This document shows, one piece after another, positions 19,303 to 32,089 of a DNA stretch of 64,000 bases. Origin of the DNA: Thiobacillus denitrificans ATCC 25259 (lineage in GTDB: Bacteria > Pseudomonadota > Gammaproteobacteria > Burkholderiales > Thiobacillaceae); the NCBI RefSeq assembly GCF_000012745.1, contig NC_007404.1, positions 1,426,001-1,490,000 on the forward strand. Reading direction: 5' to 3'. Under the pieces are notes generated by a model. It saw only the letters and a list, made by a program, of their open reading frames with translations. It was not told the DNA's origin and made no database searches. The translations under genes and the position numbers were made by a program. The stretch's first letter is position 1, and every line of letters starts with the position of its first letter.

Positions 19303-19662
19303 ATGGCCCTCAACGTAAACGGCACCAACGTCGAAACCGACGAAGCAGGCTTTCTCAAGGACCCCGAAGACTGGAACGAGGACGTCGCCCGGGCGCTCGA
19401 GCGCGAACACGAAAAAGCCGGCAACGCGCCACTCGACGACACGGCGCGCGGGCTGGTCCGGTTCTACCGCCAGTACTACAAGGAGCGGCTCGTCCACCCG
19501 ACGATGAACGACCTGCTCGAGACGCTGAAAAATCCCGGCGAAAGCCACAGCGACACCGAAAAATATAAAACGCGTCTTTACCAGATGTTTCCGCACGGCC
19601 CGGTGCAGGCGCTCTGCCGTCTTGCCGGCTTGCCCAACCCCGGCGTGGAAAACGAAAGTTGA
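19303..19662 (+). CDS. DsrC/TusE-family protein lacking the C-terminal cysteine
   Basis: The 119-residue protein matches DsrC/TusE along its length: an N-terminal ETDEAGFLKDPEDWNEDVAR, then LVRFYRQYYKERLVHPTMND, then LYQMFPHGPVQALCRLAGLP. In true DsrC two cysteines, 11 residues apart at the C-terminus, form the sulfur-carrying trisulfide. Here only the inner one (C105) is present; the position of the outer one is E116 and the tail is PNPGVENES. TusE keeps the outer one instead. It is therefore a divergent DsrC paralog, perhaps regulatory (proteins of this kind have been grouped as RspA). GGAG precedes the ATG. Confidence 0.88.
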   Translation: MALNVNGTNVETDEAGFLKDPEDWNEDVARALEREHEKAGNAPLDDTARGLVRFYRQYYKERLVHPTMNDLLETLKNPGESHSDTEKYKTRLYQMFPHGPVQALCRLAGLPNPGVENES

Positions 19663-22422: not shown

Positions 22423-23160
22423 ATGAAAAACGGAAACGCTGTTCTCAAAACGGTTCGCGCCGCGCTCGAGCGCGATCCCCGTATCAATCTGCATGTATGG
22501 CCCCTACAACTCGAACTGACCGATGACCACGCCCTCGTCGTCCAGGGCGAGGTGCAGAACATCGCAGCGAAAAAGCGCGCGCTCGAGGTGGCGGGCGCGA
22601 TGCCGGAGGTACTCGGCATCGTCGACCGCGTGCAAGTCGCGCCGGCCGAGCACAAAGGCGACGGCGAAATACTCGAAGTGCTGATCCGTCTCCTGCTCGA
22701 TTCAGGCGAATTCAAGAGCTGCACCTTGCGTGCGATCAAGAAGGGGCAGGACGTTGTGGTTCAGTCGGCCGAGGGCGCCGACTATCCGGGTGGCACCCTC
22801 AGGGTGTGGGTCGACGATGGCGTCATCACGCTCGACGGCTCGCTCATTAGCCTCTCGCACAAGCGCATGGCCGGGGTGCTGGCGTGGTGGGTGCCGGGCT
22901 GTCGCGACGTGCGCAATCTGCTCGAAGTCGAACCGCCCGAGCAGGACAACGACGGCGAGATTAGCGAAGCTCTCGCGCTGGTCCTCGAACTGGACCCGAT
23001 GATTTCACGACCGCATCAGATTCGGGTCGGCATCCGCGACAAGGTCGTGACCCTGCAGGGCGCGGTCGGCACGGAAACGGAAAAAGACCGCGCCGAACAG
23101 GACGCGTGGAGCATGTTCAACGTCGGGACCGTCGTCAACCAGCTGACGGTCAGCCGCTGA
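22423..23160 (+). CDS. Protein with three BON-like domains
   Basis: The 245-residue product contains three repeats of the BON type, about residues 5-75, 85-165 and 170-245, each with a helix-strand pattern and a GxVxxxxxxxRAExxAxxxxGVxxVxNxLxV-like end (for instance KVVTLQGAVGTETEKDRAEQ then VNQLTVSR). No signal peptide is visible, so it is probably cytoplasmic. BON domains bind membranes or ligands and occur in OsmY-like proteins. TTGGAGG stands 8 bases before the ATG at 22423. Confidence 0.75.
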   Translation: MKNGNAVLKTVRAALERDPRINLHVWPLQLELTDDHALVVQGEVQNIAAKKRALEVAGAMPEVLGIVDRVQVAPAEHKGDGEILEVLIRLLLDSGEFKSCTLRAIKKGQDVVVQSAEGADYPGGTLRVWVDDGVITLDGSLISLSHKRMAGVLAWWVPGCRDVRNLLEVEPPEQDNDGEISEALALVLELDPMISRPHQIRVGIRDKVVTLQGAVGTETEKDRAEQDAWSMFNVGTVVNQLTVSR

Positions 23161-23573: not shown

Positions 23574-23765
23574 GACGCGCTCCTCGATGAGCCCACGAAC
23601 TTTGGGGTTATAGCAGCTGGACGTCGTAGAACAAGCATGATCGGCTAATTTTCTTCGCAGAAACAAGCCTCTCGTGTCCCACCCTACCCGTTTGGAGTAA
23701 TCCCGATGAAATCGCTCGGGGTTTGTCTAGACTGGGAGGCGTCATCGTCTTCAGGAGATTGAGCC

Positions 23766-25070
23766 ATGTCTTCCAGCAGCCATGACACCCCCATGCTCGA
23801 CGAACTCGAGCGCGGACCCTGGCCCAGCTTCGTCACCGGGCTCAAGCGTCTGGCCGACGACAACCCCATGATGGCCGACCTGCTCGGCCAGCTCGAAACC
23901 TCGTACGAGACCAAGACCGGCTACTGGAAAGGCGGCACGGTCGGGGTGTTCGGCTACGGCGGCGGCATCATTCCCCGTTTCACCGAATTGAAGGACGCGG
24001 CCGGCAAGCCGCGCTTCCCCGAGGCCGCCGAATTCCACACCCTGCGCGTCCAGCCGCCGGCCGGCATGCACTACACCTCGGATCTGCTGCGCAAGCTGTG
24101 CGACGTCTGGACCGAAAACGGCGGCTCGGGCCTGATCGCGTTCCACGGCCAGTCCGGCGACATCATGTTCCAGGGCATCCGCAGCGAAAACGTTCAGGCG
24201 GCCTTCAACGGCCTTAACGAAATGGGCTTCGACCTCGGCGGCGCCGGTCCCGCGCTCCGTACCTCGATGTCCTGCGTTGGCGCTGCGCGCTGCGAAATGT
24301 CCTGCTTCGACGAAGCCCGCGCGCTGCGCACCGTCATCAACAACAACCTCGACGACATGCACCGTCCGTCGCTGCCCTACAAGTTCAAGTTCAAGTTCTC
24401 CGGCTGCCCGAACGACTGCGTCAACGCGATCCAGCGCTCCGACATGGCGACGATCGGCACCTGGCGCGACAACATCCGCGTCAATGAAGACGAGGTCCAG
24501 GCCTACTACAAGGCCCACGGCATGAAGGATCTGTACAACGACGTCGTCGGCCGCTGCCCGACGCGGGCGATCTCGGTCGTGGAAGCCGGCCAGGTCGAGC
24601 CCGAGCCACACGTTTCGGTGGCCCGGCTGGGCGACGGCAACGCCCTGTGCATCGACAACAAGAACTGCGTGCGCTGCATGCACTGCCTGAACGTCATTCC
24701 GGGCGGCCTGCGCCCCGGCGTCGACAAGGGCGTCACGATCCTCGTCGGCGGCAAGGGCGTGCTCAAGATCGGCGCGACCATGGGCACCGTGATCATCCCG
24801 TTCATGAAGCTCGAGACCGACGAGGACTTCGAGAAGCTGAACGAACTCGCGCGCAACGTTCTCGATTTCTTCGCCGAGAACGCGCTCGACCACGAGCGCA
24901 CCGGCGAGATGATCGAGCGCATCGGGCTCGCCAATTTCCTCGAGGCGATGGACATCCCGGTCGACCCCAACATGATCAACCAGCCGCGTTCCAACCCCTA
25001 TTTCCGCTCCGACGACTGGGACGAACAGGTCGCGAAGTGGGTCGACTACACGCAGCAGAAGGCTGCCTAG
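23766..25070 (+). CDS. dsrA: Dissimilatory sulfite reductase alpha subunit (orphan DsrA)
   Basis: The 434-residue protein matches DsrA from end to end: it begins with HDTPMLDELERGPWPSFV, has GVFGYGGGIIPRF, and carries the sirohaem/[4Fe-4S] cysteines C170-x5-C176 and C214-x3-C218 (FSGCPNDC). The inserted ferredoxin domain cysteines are C264 and CVRCMHC (301-307). All expected ligands are present. DsrA normally forms an alpha2beta2 enzyme with DsrB encoded directly downstream. Here the next gene, 92 bp away, is a small heat-shock protein, and no dsrB or dsrEFHC is nearby. In sulfur oxidisers the enzyme runs in reverse, oxidising DsrC-bound sulfur. This could be a second copy or a subunit whose partner is elsewhere. 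Confidence 0.92.
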   Translation: MSSSSHDTPMLDELERGPWPSFVTGLKRLADDNPMMADLLGQLETSYETKTGYWKGGTVGVFGYGGGIIPRFTELKDAAGKPRFPEAAEFHTLRVQPPAGMHYTSDLLRKLCDVWTENGGSGLIAFHGQSGDIMFQGIRSENVQAAFNGLNEMGFDLGGAGPALRTSMSCVGAARCEMSCFDEARALRTVINNNLDDMHRPSLPYKFKFKFSGCPNDCVNAIQRSDMATIGTWRDNIRVNEDEVQAYYKAHGMKDLYNDVVGRCPTRAISVVEAGQVEPEPHVSVARLGDGNALCIDNKNCVRCMHCLNVIPGGLRPGVDKGVTILVGGKGVLKIGATMGTVIIPFMKLETDEDFEKLNELARNVLDFFAENALDHERTGEMIERIGLANFLEAMDIPVDPNMINQPRSNPYFRSDDWDEQVAKWVDYTQQKAA

Positions 25071-25090
25071 GGCGGCGGCCCTCCTCGGGG

Positions 25091-27580: not shown

Positions 27581-27922
27581 ATGAATACAAAAATTCTCAC
27601 CGCCGCCCTGCTCGGCGCAAGCCTCTCGGTGCCTGTCGCGCATGCCGCCGAGGGCAAGGTCACCATTACCGCCCCAACGAAGGGCGCGATCCTCGATTCG
27701 ATGGACGAGAACCGGCTCGTCTACAGCGTCGACCCGGGACCCCGTGGTGACCATGTCCACGTCTACGTCGACGACCAGGAAGTGGGCATCTTGCGCCAGC
27801 TCAAAGGCAGTTATCTGCTCGAGAGCATGGCGTCGGGGCAGCGTGACATCTGCATCAAGGTGGTGAACAAGGCCCACGTTCCGGTCGGCGTCCAGGACTG
27901 CGTCAAGGTCACGGTCAAATAG
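27581..27922 (+). CDS. Small periplasmic protein (DUF4399/DUF6130-like)
   Basis: The 113-residue product has a clear signal peptide ending AHAAEG at about residue 23. The mature domain, KVTITAPTKGAILDSMDENR then DHVHVYVDDQEV, has two cysteines and a histidine motif DHVHVY. Similar short beta-domain proteins are annotated as DUF4399/DUF6130 (from memory). AAAGGAGA precedes ATG 27581. It sits between the TPR gene and a small membrane protein. Confidence 0.65.
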   Translation: MNTKILTAALLGASLSVPVAHAAEGKVTITAPTKGAILDSMDENRLVYSVDPGPRGDHVHVYVDDQEVGILRQLKGSYLLESMASGQRDICIKVVNKAHVPVGVQDCVKVTVK

Positions 27923-27925
27923 GCG

Positions 27926-28336
27926 GTGGATCTGGAAAATCTGGCCTATGCGCTCGTCCAGCTCGGGCACAACTTCGGCGCCGCGGCGGTCGTCGGCGGC
28001 GCGGTCTTCGCGTTATGGCCGACCCTGCAGGCGAATCACGCCCGCACCCTCGCCGGTCTGGTCCTCGCGGGATGGGCACTGCAGATCGCGACCGGCGTAC
28101 TCTTCGGCGTCGTCAGCATCTATTACTACGGCCGCACTCCGGATTTGAGCGCGGTCGCAACGACAGCGCTGGCGGTCAAGGTGAGCGCCGCCGTGGCCGG
28201 CCTTCTGCTCGCGGGCTGGTATCTCAAACGTGGCGCGCGCTGGGACCCGCACAGGCTACGCGCGACCTTTCGGGCCCTCATCATCCTTGGCGTGACGGCA
28301 CTCGCTGCCGCGGCGTTTCTGCGCTGGTTTTCCTAG
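27926..28336 (+). CDS. Small integral membrane protein with four helices
   Basis: The 136-residue product starts at GTG 27926, three bases after the previous stop. Four hydrophobic segments are visible (about residues 15-32, 43-67, 79-101 and 115-134), with histidine in GHNFGAAAVVG. No family is firmly recognised; CopD-like or DUF2269-like small membrane proteins look similar. It is co-transcribed with the preceding gene and convergent with hupE. Confidence 0.6.
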   Translation: MDLENLAYALVQLGHNFGAAAVVGGAVFALWPTLQANHARTLAGLVLAGWALQIATGVLFGVVSIYYYGRTPDLSAVATTALAVKVSAAVAGLLLAGWYLKRGARWDPHRLRATFRALIILGVTALAAAAFLRWFS

Positions 28337-28961: not shown

Positions 28962-30752
28962 TTATTTGACCTTCACCTGCACGAGTTCCTCACCGTCCGG
29001 ATCGACCACGTGGACGGCGCAGGCGATGCAGGGGTCGAAGGAATGGATCGTGCGCAGGATCTCGATCGGCTGCTTCGGGTCGAGCATCGTGTGGTTGTGC
29101 TGCAGGGCCGCCTCGTAGGCGCCCGGCTGCCCGGCCGCGTCGCGCGGGCCCGCATTCCAGGTGCTCGGGACGACCGCCTGGTAGTTGCTGATCCTGCCGT
29201 CGTCGACGACGATCCAGTGGGCCAAGCCGCCGCGTGGCGCCTCCATGAGGCCGACGCCTTGCATGTGCGCTGGCCAGGTCGAGGGATCCCAGTATTTTTC
29301 GTTGAAGGTGCGCAGGTCGCCGGCCTTGATGTTCGCCATGAGCTGATCGAACCAGCCCTGCATCGCGTCGGCGAGTATTTTCGACTCGAGCGTGCGTGCC
29401 GCGGTCCGCCCCAGCGTCGAATAGAGCGCCGTGACCGGCAGATCGAGCGTCTTCAGCGCGCGGTCGACGAGTTCCTTCGCCTGTTTGTCGCCCTTGGCGA
29501 CCATCACGAGCACGCGTGCGAGCGGGCCGACTTCCATCGATTTGCCCTTCCAGCGCGGCGACTTCATCCACGAGTATTTCTGCGCGACGTCGAGCTGCTC
29601 ATAGGGCGGCTTGGGTCCGGTGTAGTTCAGCGCGGTTTCGCCCTTGAACGGGTGCAGGCCCTGGGCGTCGCCGCCTTCGTAGCGATACCAGGAGTGACTG
29701 ACGAATTCCTGGATTTCCTTGTCGTCGTCGAGGTCGATCGGGTGGACCCGCGTCAGGTCACGATCGAGAATGACGCCGCGCGGAATGAAATAGGAATCCG
29801 TATCCCAGAATCCCTTGGACGGCAGGTCGCCGAAGGACAGGAAATTGCCCAGGCCCTCGCCGCGCCCCGCCCAGTCCTTGTAGTAGCGGGCGATCGCAAG
29901 GGTGTCCGGCAGATAGACCTGGTCGACGAACTCGCGCATCTGGCGAATGACGGTCTGCACCGTCTGCAGGCCGACCATGTTGACCGCGGTCGCGTCCTGG
30001 CCGCCGCGGTAATGCGGCCCCTTGCCGCGGCCCTCGGTGGGAAAGACCGAGATCGCCGACGGCACGCCGCCGACGACGAAATTCGGATGCGGATTGCGGC
30101 CGCCGAAGATCGCGTGCAGCTTGACGACCTCACGCTGCCAGGCGAGCGCGTCGAGATAATGCGCGAGCGCCATCAGGTTCGCTTCGGGCGGCAGCTTGTA
30201 GGCCGGGTGGCCCCAGTAGCCGTTGGCGAAGATTCCGAGCTGACCCTGTTCGACGAAGGTCTTCACCTTTCGCTGCACGTCGGCGAAATACCCGGGCGAC
30301 GACCGCGAGTAGTCCGAGATCGACTGCGCCAGCGTCGAGGCCGCGCGCGGATCGGCCTTCAAGGCCGAGACGACGTCGACCCAGTCGAGTGCGTGCAGGT
30401 GATAGAAGTGCATGACGTGGTCGTGGACGTGCTGCGCCGCGATCATCAGGTTGCGGATCAGCTCCGCGTTCGGCGGCAGCGCATAGCCGGGGATCGCGCG
30501 GTGCAGCGCATCCTCGACCGAGCGCACCGAGGCGACCCCGTGCACGAGCGTGCAGACCCCGCAGATGCGCTGCGCGAAGGCCCACGCGTCGCGCGGATCG
30601 CGGCCCCGCAGGATGATCTCGATCCCGCGCACCATGGTTCCGGCCGAGTACGCCTTGAGGATCCTGCCGTCGACGTCGGTCTCGGCCTCGATGCGCAGAT
30701 GGCCCTCGATGCGCGTGATGGGATCGACGACGACGCGCTGTGTTGTTGCCAT
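28962..30752 (-). CDS. hynL: [NiFe] hydrogenase large subunit, Isp-linked group 1 (HynL)
   Basis: The 596-residue protein carries the L1 motif RICGVCTLVHG (C64, C67) and the L2 motif DPCIACAVH (C575, C578, H581), which together hold the NiFe(CN)2CO centre. The 15 residues after H581 are the extension removed by the maturation protease. It splits or takes up H2 at the membrane. GGAGG lies before ATG 30752. The order hynS-isp1-isp2-hynL, with two genes between the subunits, identifies the Isp-type enzymes known from Thiocapsa, Allochromatium and Aquifex. Confidence 0.95.
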   Translation of the reverse strand: MATTQRVVVDPITRIEGHLRIEAETDVDGRILKAYSAGTMVRGIEIILRGRDPRDAWAFAQRICGVCTLVHGVASVRSVEDALHRAIPGYALPPNAELIRNLMIAAQHVHDHVMHFYHLHALDWVDVVSALKADPRAASTLAQSISDYSRSSPGYFADVQRKVKTFVEQGQLGIFANGYWGHPAYKLPPEANLMALAHYLDALAWQREVVKLHAIFGGRNPHPNFVVGGVPSAISVFPTEGRGKGPHYRGGQDATAVNMVGLQTVQTVIRQMREFVDQVYLPDTLAIARYYKDWAGRGEGLGNFLSFGDLPSKGFWDTDSYFIPRGVILDRDLTRVHPIDLDDDKEIQEFVSHSWYRYEGGDAQGLHPFKGETALNYTGPKPPYEQLDVAQKYSWMKSPRWKGKSMEVGPLARVLVMVAKGDKQAKELVDRALKTLDLPVTALYSTLGRTAARTLESKILADAMQGWFDQLMANIKAGDLRTFNEKYWDPSTWPAHMQGVGLMEAPRGGLAHWIVVDDGRISNYQAVVPSTWNAGPRDAAGQPGAYEAALQHNHTMLDPKQPIEILRTIHSFDPCIACAVHVVDPDGEELVQVKVK

Positions 30753-30756
30753 GAAC

Positions 30757-32019
30757 TCAGTCCTCCAGATGCTCCGCCATGAGCTCGGTCAAGCCGAGCA
30801 GCCTGGTATTCATGCCGTAATGGTCGACTGCCTCTTCCATCGTGATGCGGCAATTGGCGCAGAAAGTGACGATCGTGTCGACGCCCGCGTCCTCGAGCTG
30901 CCGCTTCTTGACGCCGAAGGCCCGCGCTCGCAAAGCCTCCGCGTCCGGCGTATGGATCGCCGAAGCGCCTCCGCCGCCGCCGCAGCACCAGTTCCACTTC
31001 TGCTTGTCGACAATGGGAATGTAATTCTCCGCGACGTGCTCCACCAGCGGCTCGGGCGCATTGAGCACGCCGCCCCGGCGCACGACCTGGCAGGGGTCAT
31101 GAAGGATGCACCGATCCTTGAACTTGTCCTTGATCCTGAGCACGCCCTTCTGGCGCAGCGCGTCGAGCAATTCGATCACGTGGACGACGTCGAAGGCGTA
31201 AGGGCGGCCCATCAGGTTGGGGCCTTCCCAGCGGATCGCCATGTAGGCATGACCGCATTCGGGCGACAGCACGTTCCTCACCTTGAGCCGTTCGGCGGCC
31301 AGCACGATGCGCGCGACGATGACCTCGGCGAGATCGGAGTTGCCGATCTGGATCCCGGCGTTGGTCGCCTCGTAGGCATCGGACGCGATCGTGAAGCTCA
31401 GGCCCGCGCGATGCATGATCTTCACGAGGGCCTCGATGTACTCGGGGTAGTTCACGACTTCCATCGACGACAGCAGGATCATGTAGTCGACGCCTGCGCG
31501 GTCGACCGGAATCGGCACCCCGGTCTTCTCCTCGACCTTGCGCAGGACGTTGGCGACCGCCGGCCACTTGAGGCCCATCGGCCCCCCCACTTCGACCGTG
31601 CGCTTGGTCGCGCTGCGGATGCCGTCCGGCGCGTGACCGGAGACGGCGAGGCCTTCGCGAAACTTGCGGATCATGTAGGTGATGTCGTTGCCGACCGGGC
31701 AGACCAGCGAGCAACGATCGCACAGCGTGCAGGCGTCGTAGGCGAGGTGCTGCCAGGCGTCGAGCTCGGCGTCGGTGACCGGTTTGGAAAGGCCGACCAG
31801 TTTCTTCAGCCGGCCGAGCAGCGTGTATTCCTGCTCGTACACGCGCCGCATCGGTTCGACCTTGTTGATCGGCGTGTACTTCGGTTCCTTCGTTTCGGTG
31901 TAGAAGAGGCAGGCGTCGGCGCAGATGCCGCAGTGCACGCAGCTCTCGAAATAGCTGGCGATGGGGGCATCGATGACTTCCTTGAGGGCATGGATGCCTT
32001 TTTCGAGTGACGCACTCAT
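30757..32019 (-). CDS. isp2: Isp2, HdrD-like iron-sulfur electron transfer protein
   Basis: The 420-residue protein has two [4Fe-4S] ferredoxin motifs, CVHCGICADAC (from C27) and CTLCDRCSLVCP (about residue 98). The C-terminal half has CCG-type motifs: HDPC followed by WCCGGGGG and then FCANC. This is the heterodisulfide-reductase HdrD architecture. With Isp1 it passes electrons from HynSL to quinone or another acceptor. ATG 32019 was chosen for its AAGGAG; an upstream ATG has none. It ends 4 bases before hynL. Confidence 0.9.
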   Translation of the reverse strand: MSASLEKGIHALKEVIDAPIASYFESCVHCGICADACLFYTETKEPKYTPINKVEPMRRVYEQEYTLLGRLKKLVGLSKPVTDAELDAWQHLAYDACTLCDRCSLVCPVGNDITYMIRKFREGLAVSGHAPDGIRSATKRTVEVGGPMGLKWPAVANVLRKVEEKTGVPIPVDRAGVDYMILLSSMEVVNYPEYIEALVKIMHRAGLSFTIASDAYEATNAGIQIGNSDLAEVIVARIVLAAERLKVRNVLSPECGHAYMAIRWEGPNLMGRPYAFDVVHVIELLDALRQKGVLRIKDKFKDRCILHDPCQVVRRGGVLNAPEPLVEHVAENYIPIVDKQKWNWCCGGGGGASAIHTPDAEALRARAFGVKKRQLEDAGVDTIVTFCANCRITMEEAVDHYGMNTRLLGLTELMAEHLED

Positions 32020-32089
32020 CGTGGCACTCTCCTTGAGCCCGTGCATGCGTGGCCGGTCTTCGTTCGCCGTGGCCGCAGCCCTCCGCGTT

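Follow-up and report, generated by a model that had tools for sequence, protein, structure and literature searches.

A dsrA gene without an adjoining dsrB in Thiobacillus denitrificans: recurrence in related genomes, selection, and a predicted IscR-type operator

The locus studied here lies within 64,000 nucleotides of the chromosome of Thiobacillus denitrificans ATCC 25259 (NC_007404.1, positions 1,426,001 to 1,490,000), a stretch that we call the window. At its center is a complete dsrA with an ATG start codon, preceded by a predicted regulatory site and followed by an hsp20 gene and small genes of no assigned family. The features used below, in window coordinates and all on the forward (+) strand, are as follows.

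22465 to 23160, +: BON-domain protein (Pfam BON); the coordinates are those of the stretch scanned, the start codon being further upstream; outside the proposed mechanism
23699 to 23723, +: IscR type-1-like site, AATCCCGA-N9-TCGGGGTT, a predicted operator and the top-scoring position of the window with a matrix from iscR promoters
23728 to 23733, +: TAGACT block just 3' of the box, a possible -10 element, largely conserved over 21 aligned upstream regions
23753 to 23757, +: ribosome-binding site AGGAG, read from the sequence
23766 to 25070, +: unpaired dsrA of the window clade (clade W), 434 aa; TIGR02064, 500 bits; 83% identity to the paired copy; 173 of 174 conserved positions
27581 to 27922, +: c3, a small protein without a family (no Pfam or NCBIfam match); outside the proposed mechanism
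27926 to 28336, +: c9, a 136-aa protein without a family, next after c3 and found in 10 of 23 orthologous loci; outside the proposed mechanism

The score of 500 bits with the curated DsrA equivalog profile TIGR02064 (cut-off, 392.85) places the window protein in the DsrA family; with the DsrB profile TIGR02066, it reaches 107.3 bits, below the cut-off of 341.5. Both Pfam domains, NIR_SIR and NIR_SIR_ferr, are recovered above cut-off. The fold is undisputed, because solved DsrA chains match the protein over most of its length, the closest being dissimilatory sulfite reductase alpha subunits (e.g., 3mm5_A, 2xsj_A, and 2v4j_A). DsrA is the subunit that bears [4Fe-4S] clusters and a sirohaem site. 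An earlier reading made from the sequence alone (the sequence-only reading) held that all of the cofactor ligands are present, and the cluster cysteines are indeed in place, namely, C170-X5-C176 and C214-X3-C218, which we take to hold the sirohaem-linked cluster, and C264, C301, C304, and C307, presumably those of the ferredoxin cluster. That reading also remarked that the N-terminal region around residues 30-45 is shorter than in Allochromatium DsrA, which is nothing special: no difference in length was seen there between the window protein, its paired copy, and a DsrA from Chromatiales (L202), and among the rows compared, those that exceed it, by five residues, are two alphaproteobacterial ones and two others.

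The same reading described a complete dsrA standing without dsrB, and this is borne out. There is no dsrB directly 3' of the gene, which therefore lacks the operon context of a DsrAB subunit, and none was found anywhere in the 64-kb window. The genome, a single contig of 2,909,809 bases, has three dsrA genes, at genome positions 1449766 (the window gene), 2559708 (83% identity), and 1388055 (81%, likewise unpaired), and a genome-wide search recovered a DsrB match in a single place, adjoining the dsrA at 2559708. The check that the sequence-only reading had called for thus gives a dsrAB operon elsewhere in the genome and no unpaired dsrB. The DsrA search produced two weaker matches as well, one of them to the dsrB (24%) and the other at 2379307 (28%).

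That T. denitrificans has two dsrA copies lacking dsrB is on record in Loy 2009, citing Beller 2006 (PMC2702494), in a passage that remarks on them only as unexpected. They are very probably the window gene and the copy at 1388055, with which they share the organism and the identity range (78-83%). The bare existence of unpaired dsrA is therefore already in print, and what is added here is its distribution, the selection acting on it, its separate origins, and the IscR-type site. The titles and abstracts listed in literature searches yielded no explanation of such copies, and a literature search gave no title on IscR regulation of dsr genes among the matches listed; the iscR that figures in PMC7596348 is, in the part of the paper that names it, a gene deleted in an expression host.

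To place the gene among its relatives, we surveyed the family, the genus, and the order. Of 117 genomes of the family, 107 gave a match to DsrA (E up to 1e-20) and 99 a match to DsrB (E up to 1e-40). The genus is represented by 56 genomes; clade W was found in 23 of them, plus one in which it is cut off by a contig end, and was not found in 32, many of these being incomplete. Twenty-two of the 23 carriers have no internal stop; the one orthologue with a stop, in G066, was assigned to the clade through identity and not through the tree. A second unpaired clade (T), which includes the copy at 1388055, is present in 6 of the 56 genomes; in T. thioparus DSM 505, a W copy and a T copy accompany the dsrAB pair. 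A third (G) is spread over two other genera of the same family, where 10 genomes carry it. DsrA occurs in 87 genomes of a 399-genome sample of the order; in a sample of family f15, to which a Sulfuricella denitrificans assembly appears to belong, as judged from matching coordinates, seven genomes have two dsrA and one dsrB, four have a single dsrA, and one (G430) has partial dsrA pieces with no dsrB match. Unpaired dsrA thus extends beyond the genus, to two further genera and to another family.

Throughout the carriers, two or three dsrA genes stand against one dsrB and, split pieces aside, never more than one. Where a genome gives multiple DsrB matches, these look like pieces of one gene, except in G112; this genome has a second, partial dsrB place with an internal stop, and its loci as read include no unpaired dsrA. 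A single DsrA match (E up to 1e-50) was obtained in each of the 47 genomes from which 47 of the 49 named loci L178 to L226 come, and some of these genomes are members of the same family or of f15. A possible further unpaired case is L196 (Gammaproteobacteria), in whose genome part of a dsrB lies at the edge of a contig; at L215, dsrA ends 286 nt from the contig end, and no dsrB was found in that genome. A frameshift in both dsrA genes of G178 was ruled out, the cause being runs of N.

The comparison with the canonical copy that the sequence-only reading had called for puts the window gene in clade W, and the unpaired genes do not form a single clade. On a 105-row tree (quick search, SH-aLRT support), the unpaired label has to change 7 times, and at least 6 of these changes fall on supported branches. 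In AU tests on 40 chosen rows, for which the groups were chosen in the light of a first tree, so that the p-values are weaker than they look, a clade of W with G was rejected (p 0.0001), as was one of W, T, and G (p 0.001), and a clade of W with T was not (p 0.26). A second tree was built after 18 paired Thiobacillus rows had been thinned out and 22 further rows added. L052 (internal stop) and L068 (truncated) were left out of the trees, the dN/dS comparison, and the dsrA promoter scan, and L239 to L243, which are partial or contain N, stood outside the tree and scan. Separate origins could also be mimicked by gene conversion between copies; one f15 genome has its paired and unpaired copies (L230 and L231) as sisters on short branches. 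Four substitutions, V68I, M111L, F150L, and V343I, are common to most W and G members, by convergence or as remains of an older common copy, though the tree separates the two clades. They are conservative and present in some paired copies too, and we gave them no weight as proof.

We then compared the unpaired proteins at 174 columns that are at least 97% conserved among 62 paired DsrA. The window protein keeps 173 of these; its sole break, E375D, is found in most of clade W and is the only majority change within any clade at these positions. The mean number of breaks is 1.7 in W, 0.3 in T, 1.3 in G, and 1.2 in the unpaired f15 genes, and it is 0.45 in paired copies. Residues in contact with DsrB, DsrC, and the cofactors are expected to be among those kept. 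Over 171 genome pairs, with paired copies taken from the same genomes and L084 and L085 left out, the median dN/dS of unpaired versus paired genes was 0.139 versus 0.113 in W (120 pairs), 0.081 versus 0.082 in T (15 pairs), and 0.165 versus 0.131 in G (36 pairs). In 77% of the W, 69% of the G, and 33% of the T pairs, the unpaired gene has the higher dN/dS. Purifying selection on unpaired dsrA is therefore strong and, as unpaired dN/dS is higher in most of their pairs, slightly relaxed in W and G. The gene is not a relic, and its selection and conservation look like those expected of a working alpha subunit.

The region upstream of the W genes contains a conserved block that is absent from the paired dsrA in the same alignment. 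We scored it with an IscR matrix made, independently of dsrA, from 27 distinct boxes (57 boxes at 29 iscR loci of the genus). The window site scores 6.7, the top of all positions in the 64 kb (runner-up, 5.4) and at the same time the lowest value of clade W, whose median is 22.6; the 20 other scanned W orthologues have the site at about the same distance, with scores from 16.4 to 34.0. A consensus scan reported no sigma-70 hexamers at the predicted site, the TAGACT block included. The promoter scan took the best match in up to 200 nt upstream of each gene; it had no upstream sequence for L084 and L141, and L085 stood outside it. Scores of at least 15 were obtained for 20 of 21 W, 10 of 10 G, 5 of 6 unpaired f15, and 0 of 6 T genes, versus 0 of 61 paired and 0 of 5 paired f15 genes, that is, 35 of 43 unpaired versus 0 of 66 paired dsrA at a cut-off chosen after the scores had been seen. 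By a per-position p of <1e-4 (background of ten loci), the corresponding numbers are 21 W, 10 G, 5 unpaired f15, and 0 T genes versus 6 of 61 paired and 1 of 5 paired f15 genes, or 36 of 43 versus 7 of 66. The median scores are 26.4 for G, 20.5 for unpaired f15, -5.2 for T, -5.8 for paired, and -4.9 for paired f15 genes. Rows within a clade are kin, so that these counts amount to about three lineages and not 35 events. From one clade to another, the box lies at different distances from the start codon (65-70, 51-100, and 132-140 nt), an argument for its having been gained separately.

Exceptions occur on both sides. Three paired copies equal or exceed the window box (11.9, 9.6, and 6.7), and some of the paired copies that pass p <1e-4 carry a different dyad near -160. 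In genus g7, the paired dsrA of L118, L121, L122, L123, and L124 have a weaker dyad, YTACCCGA-N9-...GTTAC, near -160, which may be the site of another regulator. No IscR box was found upstream of the clade T genes (0 of 6 at either cut-off) or of the f15 copy L228. The third dsrA of the T. denitrificans genome (L014:8050-9351), unpaired and of clade T, is under strong selection and has no IscR box. Among 462 upstream regions of the same loci called as non-dsrA, 12 score at least 15, and by inspection these are 3 miscalled dsrA, 8 divergent neighbors sharing the intergenic region, and 1 separate case.

The predicted sites have the layout of IscR type-1 sites, two 8-base arms with a 9-base spacer, as given in PMC3899308. 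The window site agrees with the Escherichia coli type-1 consensus at 17 of 25 positions, as does Pseudomonas aeruginosa iscR site A, and the common W form agrees at 20 of 25, as does site B; the first arm of site A, AATCCTGA, resembles AATCCCGA of the window site (PMC3899308). Unlike these reference sites, those described here have a dsrA as their presumed target gene. The genome encodes an IscR (TIGR02010, above cut-off) followed by IscS, and this IscR has C92, C98, C104, H107, and E43, the residues named in PMC3899308. According to that paper, cluster-loaded IscR binds type-1 sites and represses, and its level is proposed to drop in oxidative stress and iron limitation. A degenerate pattern covering the iscR and window sites, composed after both had been seen, matches 8 distinct sites in the genome versus 0 in a reversed control, and the window site is its only match in the 64 kb. 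Others lie at iscR, at a Grx4-type glutaredoxin gene (above cut-off), and at a gene pair whose second member is like dioxygenase ferredoxins (below cut-off). Two further IscR-like boxes, L285:1759 and 2220 (genome positions 1603758 and 1604219), each precede a small gene without an NCBIfam match.

The hsp20 gene stands next to the window dsrA as the sequence-only reading had noted, but it is uninformative as a clue, having been found at none of 23 orthologous loci (the L068 locus stops within dsrA), and we rejected it as a partner. The c3 gene is present in 11 of the 23 loci and sits just 3' of dsrA in 8 of 10; the BON-domain protein gene is present in 8. An aprB, aprA, and membrane gene set lies near the W dsrA in L058, L065, L067, and L084, with AprB and AprA above cut-off for L058 and an AprA fragment for L067. 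At 4 of 24 W loci (L058, L062, L067, and L084) and 3 of 10 G loci (L078, L079, and L081), suf genes lie no more than 9 kb from unpaired dsrA, with SUF families confirmed on the L079 and L081 proteins, and none was found at 6 T or 16 f15 loci; this closeness has no fair control, as the paired loci had short flanks. nifU, nifS, and a nifW-like gene lie near L074. These apr, suf, and nif links are scattered and only suggestive. A SUF-type Rrf2 regulator is encoded at all seven suf-bearing loci but L081. We rejected it as the controller, since its own promoter shows, by eye, a different block, so that its closeness to unpaired dsrA is merely positional. DsrC/TusE-like proteins are encoded at L079:9303-9620 and L081:7082-7396, just 3' of the unpaired dsrA; they score under the family cut-off and lack C-terminal cysteines.

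The computation shows an intact gene, conservation across a clade, one dsrB, purifying selection, and an operator-like site. We consider it reasonably likely that the window gene encodes an alternative alpha subunit that would join the single DsrB in trans and be derepressed at Fe-S shortage; the pairing, the repression by IscR, and the purpose are read from sequence patterns. The gene would have arisen as a duplicate of the paired dsrA, and the probable partner of its product is the one DsrB, which is encoded far away. Cluster-loaded IscR would repress the promoter via the predicted type-1-like box, and loss of the cluster through iron shortage or through oxidative or nitrosative damage would derepress dsrA, so that fresh alpha subunits might be made while the Fe-S enzymes of the cell fail. 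The protein resembles the paired oxidative-type DsrA of rDsrAB in family, length, cluster cysteines, and conserved positions, and differs from it in the missing adjoining dsrB, the other upstream region, and the IscR-type box. Among the three readings offered from the sequence alone, that of a trans-encoded partner fits best because each genome has one dsrB, the conserved positions are kept, and selection is close to that on paired DsrA; we found nothing that favors a homo-oligomer or a regulator over it. Clade T, which has no box, falls outside the IscR proposal, and the doubling of the alpha subunit alone is not accounted for. A wider claim, that three or more lineages of sulfur oxidizers separately evolved an IscR-controlled solo DsrA that is swapped in with one DsrB when Fe-S supply fails, we put forward tentatively, holding it slightly less probable than its opposite.

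Other accounts of the gene seem to us weaker. A plain dosage copy or decaying duplicate without a role of its own, for which the operator would be incidental, could explain the in-frame stop in the G066 orthologue, the 32 genus genomes in which the clade was not found (many of them incomplete), the degenerate window box, and the slightly relaxed selection in most W and G pairs. It is nonetheless unlikely, given the carriers without internal stops, the dN/dS near 0.14, and similar boxes in three lineages at differing distances. The cluster cysteines and the occurrence of the gene alone in many genomes would also suit a homo-oligomeric or self-sufficient enzyme, a complex of its own without DsrB that acts on a sulfur or nitrogen compound, though such an enzyme would be expected to have a reworked DsrB-facing surface, and the sequence is near that of paired DsrA. 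In DsrAB structures, moreover, the active sirohaem site requires both subunits, which makes this account quite unlikely. Predicted IscR-type control and the suf genes within 9 kb of the W and G loci counted above would be in keeping with a noncatalytic Fe-S or sirohaem sensor, sink, or regulator; we find this distinctly improbable, as selection and conservation are near those of the catalytic paralogue and the protein has no extra Pfam domain. An assembly artefact, with a dsrB that belongs at position 25071 missing, was the condition under which the first description of the gene would have fallen. It is very unlikely, to the point of being negligible, because the genome is a single contig, the arrangement recurs in many genomes, among them that of T. 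thioparus DSM 505, an isolate with two unpaired loci, and unpaired copies are recorded in PMC2702494.

DsrA and DsrB are usually regarded as a co-encoded pair, and dsrA serves as a marker of sulfur metabolism, counts of which are inflated by unpaired dsrA. If the unpaired gene is under Fe-S control, a central energy enzyme would adapt to cluster damage through exchange of one subunit, and if solo DsrA is indeed swapped in, sulfur oxidation would go on under iron shortage, oxygen, or nitric oxide. The oddity called unexpected in the 2009 passage would thereby gain a testable purpose.

The sequence-only reading also stated that no other dsr genes are present, which is nearly right, as two genes of the window come close. 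A DsrC-family gene at 19303-19662, one of nine such matches above cut-off in the genome, encodes only one of the two C-terminal cysteines that are the rule in DsrC; we rejected it as a partner on this ground and because it occurs in 0 of 23 other W loci. The other, at 30757-32046, is a DsrK/HmcF-like protein gene with 209 bits against a DsrK cut-off of 400. It belongs to a pair (28962-32046) in which a [NiFe] hydrogenase large subunit stands beside this DsrK/TmcB/HmcF-like iron-sulfur protein, which is below each of the curated cut-offs compared. The large-subunit gene, at 28962-30752, fits hynL (Tbd_1375), named in PMC3753534 as encoding the periplasmic [NiFe] hydrogenase large subunit of T. 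denitrificans.
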